Origin: an uncultured Spirochaetia bacterium
Lineage (GTDB): Bacteria; Spirochaetota; Brachyspiria; Brachyspirales; Brachyspiraceae
NCBI GenBank assembly: GCA_947040945.1
Contig: CAMRCO010000008.1
Location: forward strand, 1 to 42,154
DNA length: 42,154 bases
Direction: 5' to 3'
The position numbers and the translations under genes are program-made. Below, in pieces: positions 33,267-35,083 of this stretch (its first letter is position 1; every line of letters begins with the position of its first letter). Below the pieces are notes generated by a model, which was not told the DNA's origin, searched no databases, and was given only the letters and a program-made list of their open reading frames with translations.

Positions 33267-33617
33267 ATGGATGAAACGATATTAGAAGCTTCTATGGAAA
33301 TGATTATGAATGCAGGTGATGCTAGACTATTTTCTAAAGAAGCACTTGATTCTATAGCCGTGTATGATTTCGAGACAGCAAAAAATAAACTTAAAGACGC
33401 TGTAAAAAAAATAAAAGAAGCTCACTGCATACAAACTGATATTCTACAAGAAGAGAGCAAAGGAAACAGTATTCCGTATAGTATTTTATTTTCACATGCT
33501 CAAGACACATTAATGAGTGTATGTAGTGAAATAAATATGTCAAAACAAATGATAAAAATATTTGAACAATATGAACAAAGAATTAAAAAACTTGAAGAAA
33601 GTAAGGATACATTATAA
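33267..33617 (+). CDS. celC: PTS EIIA component, lactose/cellobiose family
   Basis: This 116-residue, three-helix phosphocarrier has the active-site His77 in [13 protein letters not shown]. It takes phosphate from HPr and gives it to EIIB. AAAGGAAA precedes the ATG. The N-terminal helix ([20 protein letters not shown]) and the Asp in the IQTDIL segment are family features. Its TAA overlaps the ATG of the glycosidase gene by one base (TAATG), so the two are translationally coupled. Confidence 0.92.
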
Positions 33618-35083
33618 TGAAAAATGATAAAAATATAATAAATAGAGTACCTACTGGTTTTCCAAAAGACTTTTTATGGGGAGGAGCTGTTGCTGCCAAC
33701 CAATGTGAGGGGGCTTATGATGAAGACGGAAAAGGACTTAGTGTTGCTGACATTAACAGATTTAGAGATGACATAAAAATTAAAGACAAGCATAATTATG
33801 AAATGACTACAGATGATGTAAAAGATTTATTAAGAGAAGATAATGGTTATATATTTCCTAAAAGAAAAGGAATTGATTTTTATCACACATATAAAGAGGA
33901 CTTAAAACTTTTAGGAAAAGATGGGCTTGGATTTAAGACATTTAGAACATCTATAAGTTGGGCTAGAATATTTCCAAATGGAGACGACAAAGCTCCGAAT
34001 GAACTTGGACTTGCTTTTTATGACAACCTAATTGACGAAATTATAAAAAATGGTATGGAGCCTCTAATTACAGTGTCTCACTATGAAATGCCATTAAACC
34101 TAACCAGTAAATATACAGGCTGGTATTCAAGGGAGGTTATTGACTTTTTTGTAGAATATTCAAAAACTTTATTTGATAGATATCATAAAAAAGTTAAATA
34201 CTGGATAATAGTAAACCAAATTAACCTTATTGGCTATGAATCATTTAACCATTTAGGCGTCGCTGAAGACAAAGTAGAAAACTTAGCTTCAGCAAAATAT
34301 CAAGCTGTACATAATGAAATGGTTGCTTGTGCTAAGGTTACTAAATATGTTCATGAAAAATATAAAGATGTTGAAGTTGGAATGATGTTATGTGGAGGCC
34401 CTGATTACAGTACAACATGCAAATCAGAGGACGTACTTGGAACATTAAGACATAATCAAATGGAATATTTTTATAGTGATGTTTTACTTAGAGGTTACTA
34501 CCCTAATTATGCTTTTAGATATTTCAAAGAAAATAATATAAATATCGAGTTTTTTGATGGAGATGAAGAATATTTGAAAAACACAGCTGACTTTTTTAGC
34601 TTTTCATATTATTACACAACTTTATCATCTAAAGAAAGTTATGAAAACGGCAACACATCAATGCTAAACTCATCACTACCTGCTAATCCTTGGGGTTGGG
34701 GAATTGACCCTATTGGCATACGTATTTTCTTAAACAAATTTTATGACAGATACCAAAAACCAATATATATAACAGAAAATGGAATCGGATATTATGACGA
34801 AATAAAAAATGGAAAAATAGATGATTCATATAGAATCGATTATTTTAGAGAACATTTCAAGCAAATTAAAGAAGCTATAATCGATGGTGTAGATGTCAGA
34901 GGATATTATGCTTGGGGACCTATCGACATTATATCTTGCTCATCATCAGAAATGAGTAAACGTTATGGATTTATACACGTAGACTATGACGATTATGGTA
35001 AAGGTACTGGAAAAAGAACAAAAAAAGAAAGTTATGAATGGATGAAAAAAGTTATCGCCTCTAATGGAGAGAGTTTAGATTAA
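33617..35083 (+). CDS. GH1 phospho-beta-glycosidase with Gln at the acid/base position
   Basis: This 488-residue glycoside hydrolase family 1 enzyme should hydrolyse the 6-phosphorylated sugar delivered by the PTS. It has the N-terminal [20 protein letters not shown], nucleophile Glu387 (IYITENG), and the C-terminal phosphate-binding stretch [20 protein letters not shown] with R-TKKES. The acid/base motif, normally [TF]NE[IP]N, reads VNQIN, with Gln201 (codon CAA at 34217-34219) in place of Glu. Plant myrosinases have the same change and act on substrates with good leaving groups. The gene is otherwise intact, so natural substrates may differ from plain phospho-cellobiose. It is the fourth gene of the operon. 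Confidence 0.88.

Follow-up and report, generated by a model that had tools for sequence, protein, structure and literature searches.

A PTS cassette encodes a GH1 enzyme with glutamine at the acid/base site

The window analysed here is a stretch of 42,154 nucleotides (GC content 30.5%) from an uncultured Spirochaetia bacterium of the Brachyspiraceae (contig CAMRCO010000008.1). We focused on a block of six genes encoding a regulator, EIIB, EIIC, EIIA, a GH1 enzyme and HPr, in which GH1 is fifth. The features, with coordinates and strand, are as follows.

29556..35556 (approximate), no strand: island of about 6 kb, inserted by comparison with sister genome G001
29581..31497, minus: divergent regulator with HTH, Mga-like, two PRD and EIIA-2 domains
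31651..31968, plus: PTS EIIB, lactose/cellobiose family
31999..33252, plus: PTS EIIC, lactose/cellobiose family
33267..33617, plus: PTS EIIA, lactose/cellobiose family, with a stop that shares one base with the start of GH1
33617..35083, plus: phospho-glycosidase of family GH1 in which Gln occupies the acid/base site (Pfam PF00232, E 1.6e-117)
34217..34219, plus: codon 201, CAA, encoding the acid/base-site Gln
34238..34240, plus: codon 208, GAA, encoding the +1-subsite Glu typical of the clade, aligned with myrosinase Arg194
34775..34777, plus: codon 387, GAA, retained nucleophile Glu
34937..34966, plus: phosphate loop Cys441, Ser442, Lys448 and Tyr450 (roles of the equivalent residues from PMC3605045)
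35112..35369, plus: HPr phosphocarrier, on the island
35396..35424, plus: inverted repeat followed by T-rich DNA 3' of HPr, terminator-like as read by eye

The adjacent EIIA (PF02255), EIIB (PF02302) and EIIC (PF02378) genes identify a lactose/cellobiose-family PTS operon. The GH1 ORF is intact and full-length (488 aa), and PF00232 (Glyco_hydro_1) matches residues 14-484 with 393 bits. The AlphaFold2 model (pLDDT 95.1) has the (beta/alpha)8 fold and matches 6-phospho-beta-glucosidases, with a TM score of 0.95 against PDB 6wgd; sequence identity to 6wgd is 47-49%. The best score against a named NCBIfam subfamily was 510 bits, below the cut-off of 623.

Using phmmer, we found that Q201 pairs with the Glu of NE(I/V)N in PDB entries 6wgd, 4ipl, 8ysv, 2xhy and 3qom, with no gap close by. 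The aligned residue of LpPbg1 (3qom), Glu180, is the assigned acid/base (PMC3605045). These alignments to solved 6-phospho-beta-glucosidases uphold a preliminary description of the locus, which had placed a Gln codon at this site. Gln alone does not expel the enzyme from GH1, a family that also contains Gln-bearing myrosinases. The same description was right that the nucleophile and the phosphate-binding end are kept. E387 sits in ITENG, in agreement with the GH1 motif (I/V)TENG, and the glycone residues Q29, H155, N200 and W433 are present. The phosphate site has the K448, Y450 and S442 of 6-phospho-beta-glucosidases (EC 3.2.1.86), where the Ser is variable, and C441 supplies a small residue at the LpPbg1 Ala431 position.

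Enzymes with glutamine form one clade

To find related genes, 84,980 GTDB species genomes were scanned with a degenerate DNA pattern for YW-hydrophobic-x-hydrophobic-NQIN. The scan gave at least 118 loci, and the number of Gln loci is likewise a minimum. Among the loci listed, 96 hold a GH1-like tblastn match and nearly all of these have Gln at the site. The remaining 22 fit the roughly 17 chance matches expected from a hand estimate based on the information content of the pattern. Hence, GTDB species genomes contain at least 90 Gln GH1 loci, mostly in Bacillota. This phylum accounts for 59 of the 71 listed loci that gave almost complete sequences without duplicates; Actinomycetota, Pseudomonadota, Chloroflexota and Synergistota are also represented among the listed loci.

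We built a maximum-likelihood tree of 102 GH1 sequences, leaving out the columns around residue 201. All 46 Gln enzymes lay on one side of a single branch (SH-aLRT 97), nested among Glu enzymes. NQ forms thus make up a clade, a point that the preliminary description had proposed to check. This topology indicates that the Glu-to-Gln change probably arose once and was then maintained. With clade membership taken from the tree, Gln was present in 98/98 members of this multi-phylum clade and Glu in 93/93 sequences outside it, which places Gln201 beyond chance or sequencing error. The nucleophile Glu was conserved in 98/98 clade members. We rejected the possibility of a sequencing error or pseudogene on the basis of this clade-wide conservation and the intact frame.

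The Gln copy of Escherichia sp. ESNIH1 had no megablast match in 5,426 E. coli genomes. Searching a plasmid collection recovered the Listeria neighbourhood; the Priestia and E. faecium matches inspected were Glu homologues. No report of the Gln clade was found among the open-access papers searched.

Gln enzymes are coupled to PTS genes

The commonest neighbours in the Gln loci listed were EIIC (72), EIIA (65), a PRD regulator of the same family as that in the window (58) and EIIB (57). To remove flank bias, we compared Gln and Glu loci with the same 1.5-kb flanks. EIIA was adjacent to 20/24 Gln genes versus 1/39 Glu genes, and EIIC to 23/24 versus 3/39; p-values for these comparisons are indicative only, since related sequences are not independent. 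NQ genes therefore sit in PTS operons, the other point of the proposed check. On an EIIC tree, the EIICs linked to Gln enzymes cluster, requiring 3 changes compared with a shuffled mean of 16. Most Gln cassettes are without a Glu partner gene and the Gln GH1 is usually the sole glycosidase of its cassette.

Some listed cassettes carry extra genes, encoding HPr (8 loci besides the window), Enzyme I (4), a YczE-like membrane protein (7) or an EamA permease of the carboxylate/amino acid/amine type (10: L069, L070, L074, L077, L084, L087, L109, L110, L124 and L127). In most of its loci the EamA gene is just 3' of GH1. The permease may export the aglycone and, if so, would be a clue to the substrate. 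Tandem GH1 genes also occur. Two Gln genes are found at L055, L106, L115, L122 and L130, and one Gln gene with one Glu gene at L064, L072, L141 and L147. Such pairs suggest a division of labour between substrates.

Residue differences map to the leaving-group side

We compared 98 Gln and 93 Glu sequences by residue. The -1 and phosphate-site residues are alike in both groups. The largest differences are at positions 333, 208, 260, 431, 375, 47 and 198. In an alignment to the data of PMC3605045, positions 333, 208, 260, 256 and 204, all among the most divergent, map at or near the +1 subsite of LpPbg1 and SmBgl. By our own alignment mapping, positions 204, 256 and 333 correspond to SmBgl Asn179, Cys241 and Met314, which are among the variable aglycone-side residues (PMC3605045).

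Position 208 of the Gln clade is Glu in 81/93 filled positions, and 15/98 members have neither Glu nor Asp there. Taking positions 208 and 260 together, Asp or Glu occurs at one or the other in 97/98 Gln enzymes versus 2/93 Glu enzymes. Asp260 is present in most relatives; the window enzyme itself has Glu208 and Gly260. Such differences between a clade and its relatives are common by descent and are not independent evidence. With the sugar sites unchanged, the altered +1 positions and acidic residues at 208 and 260 together indicate a remodelled, acidic leaving-group pocket in an enzyme whose sugar half has stayed the same.

The cassette lies on a probably inserted island

In G001, the genus's other genome (L250), ctpA adjoins rpmF-plsX and the gap between ctpA and plsX is 451 bp. 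This gap holds a small ORF matching a 64-aa ORF of the window (35589-35783). From its sequence, the latter, an unlisted ORF upstream of plsX with a counterpart at the corresponding site of G001, can be read as ribosomal protein L32 (rpmF). Intergenic homology to G001 picks up again on both sides of the block in the window. Hence, approximately 6 kb, HPr included, constitutes an insertion. Alternatively, the block was lost in G001. However, the window GH1 is closest to enzymes of Clostridia and Bacilli (70-73% identity), and GH1 genes of its own family are only 45-50% identical. We therefore favour acquisition, judging from these identities. No clear target-site repeats were seen in a repeat scan of the island region, and the window had no match when scanned for Rfam families or tRNAs.

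The Gln enzyme is the only GH1 of its genome and a search of the same genome for GH4 found none. Hence, there is no other enzyme of the two known 6-phospho-beta-glucosidase families there. Two further HPr genes are present besides that of the island.

Two other regions of the window were noted. Positions 19130-23378 encode an IclR regulator, GD_AH altronate/galactarate dehydratase domains without the N-terminal domain, a DapA-family aldolase and a KdgT permease; this looks like a sugar-acid catabolic cluster. Positions 6991-11356 encode, in a row, an S15/CocE-like peptidase, a membrane protein with DUF819 and a dipeptide-epimerase-like member of the enolase superfamily, possibly a peptide-use operon.

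Proposed function of the Gln enzymes and alternatives

We lean, at slightly better than even confidence, towards a PTS-coupled 6-phospho-beta-glucosidase specialised for glucosides whose aglycone leaves without a proton from residue 201. The PTS cassette would be mobile and self-contained, with the GH1 gene encoding its catabolic enzyme. Briefly, a beta-glucoside would enter via EIIA, EIIB and EIIC and be phosphorylated at O6, with the island's own HPr or another HPr of the cell as phosphate donor. The enzyme would bind the same 6-phospho-glucose as ordinary 6-phospho-beta-glucosidases and attack by Glu387 would remove the glucose-6-phosphate half. The carboxylic acid that normally protonates the leaving group is absent, and the enzyme would therefore be specialised for aglycones able to leave without that proton. 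Substrates might be, for example, activated aryl or heteroaryl glucosides. The acidic +1 pocket, with Glu208 and, in most relatives, Asp260, would bind or activate the aglycone; we speculate that cationic or hydrogen-bond-donor aryl or heteroaryl aglycones would fit. What we infer here is the catalytic activity, the requirement on the leaving group and the type of aglycone.

The preliminary description had also proposed a substrate other than cellobiose, and an ordinary cellobiose-6-phosphate hydrolase is indeed unlikely. In the relative Gan1D, the same change (E170Q) was introduced deliberately to inactivate the enzyme, which was solved with cellobiose-6-phosphate bound (4zfm). We looked for a Gln member with proven cellobiose-6-phosphate activity and found none.

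The main rival is that a displaced carboxylate, Glu208 and/or Asp260, acts as the acid/base and that ordinary O-glucosides are still cleaved. The near-ubiquity of an acidic residue at one of these positions in NQ enzymes, and its rarity in NE enzymes, is consistent with this. In addition, 208 is Q201+7, equivalent to the +1-facing Arg194 position of myrosinase, and 260 is at the end of strand beta-5, four residues past the +1 position aligned with SmBgl Cys241. However, neither 208 nor 260 is universal alone and one NQ sequence (L075) has neither; independence would leave about 5/98 without both, which makes for mild complementarity, with phylogeny as a confounder. Furthermore, plant GH1 enzymes lead one to expect that the +7 residue points towards the aglycone here, not towards the glycosidic oxygen. 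We consider this rival unlikely. A wider version is only slightly less doubtful: the +7 and beta-5 carboxylates may have taken over as general acid/base from the NE motif, or may protonate the aglycone remotely, in an enzyme spread horizontally together with a dedicated importer and, in certain hosts, with EamA as exporter of the aglycone. If true, either catalytic set-up would be one undescribed for GH1 in the literature searched.

A bacterial 6-phospho-myrosinase, in a cassette that imports and cleaves thioglucosides such as glucosinolates, is improbable. The window enzyme does combine an acid/base Gln with a nucleophile Glu, as plant myrosinases do (PDB 1myr, 7z1i), and glucosinolate cleavage fed by a PTS is known in lactic acid bacteria. 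In Sinapis myrosinase (1myr), glucosinolate sulfate is bound by Arg194. In an ungapped motif alignment this residue (Q187+7 of 1myr) is replaced by Glu208, the charge of which is unfriendly to the sulfate. Motif alignment also puts Gly at position 261, in place of Arg259 of the myrosinase ascorbate/sulfate site. No sulfatase or nitrile/isothiocyanate-related gene was seen recurring in the cassettes, and known bacterial 6-phospho-thioglucosidases are Glu enzymes or very probably so.

L. plantarum WCFS1 has eleven GH1 enzymes, all with 6-phospho-glucosidase and eight also with 6-phospho-thioglucosidase activity (PMC10360150), and L. plantarum GH1 enzymes are reported to have an identical -1 subsite (PMC3605045). 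The NQ pattern had no match in genome G092, which encodes a protein with 100% identity to 3qom and was so matched to L. plantarum. On these data, we rejected the idea that Gln confers thioglucosidase activity on bacterial phospho-glucosidases; thioglucoside cleavage in bacteria evidently does not need Gln. Lp_3132 of L. plantarum was considered as a candidate Gln enzyme and dropped, since G092 lacks an NQ match and the Lactiplantibacillus genomes with NQ (G074, G078 and G085) had no 3qom match at E <= 1e-240. CfPbgS, with proven action on sinigrin, receives its substrate through a fused EIIBCA (PMC8660893), and no fused EIIBCA lies beside the Companilactobacillus Gln genes. Hence, the thioglucoside reading offered in the preliminary description finds no support here and myrosinase-like action on glucosinolates is disfavoured.

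Least probable is a non-hydrolase, namely a pseudoenzyme, a sensor, or a transglycosidase or phosphorolytic enzyme passing 6-phospho-glucosyl to another acceptor: acid/base mutants of retaining glycosidases favour anionic or activated acceptors and Klotho illustrates that GH1 folds can lose catalysis, but the clade is deep and shows no variation in its nucleophile and substrate residues, the Gln GH1 usually has no other glycosidase beside it, and no beta-phosphoglucomutase-like gene was seen recurring in the cassettes.

Implications

We conclude that these are putative hydrolases of a widespread and uncharacterised GH1 clade that is linked to PTS genes and lacks the canonical general acid/base. 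To our knowledge, natural loss of the GH1 acid/base is known mainly from plant myrosinase, and from the non-catalytic Klotho. Here, a large bacterial clade shares this loss and is linked to a PTS of its own. Hosts include gut, food, soil and bee-gut bacteria as well as Listeria monocytogenes. The clade provides many orthologues in which to study how a retaining glycosidase can function when the general acid is missing, and would mark a class of dietary or plant glucosides to which no bacterial breakdown has been assigned. The automatic label 'cellobiose/6-phospho-beta-glucosidase' given to these operons is probably wrong.

Comparison with known systems

Enzymes of the BglA/AscB/BglH type (6wgd, 4ipl, 2xhy, 3qom) resemble the window enzyme in fold, length, nucleophile, glycone and 6-phosphate residues and PTS context, at no more than 49% identity. 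The window enzyme differs in having Gln for the acid/base Glu, changes at 198, 386 and 441 and a new +1 subsite; its cassette has separate EIIB, EIIC and EIIA genes and a PRD-EIIA2 regulator. Plant myrosinase (1myr, 7z1i) shares the acid/base Gln and the kept nucleophile. However, it is eukaryotic, acts on an unphosphorylated substrate, has Arg194 and an ascorbate cofactor, and is of independent origin. The CfPttS-CfPbgS system of Companilactobacillus farciminis also couples PTS import to a GH1 6-phospho-glucosidase, but the transporter is a fused EIIBCA and CfPbgS is, by elimination, a Glu enzyme.

The Listeria monocytogenes cassette has the same gene set and a Gln enzyme 51% identical to that of the window (L150, L151). 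It differs in that the regulator is downstream and HPr is absent. The cassette (L151:4028-9405) lies between succinate-semialdehyde dehydrogenase and vga(G), and we take it, numbering by gene order, to be lmo0914-lmo0918. These Listeria genes have been called cellobiose PTS and beta-glucosidase in the literature, by similarity only.
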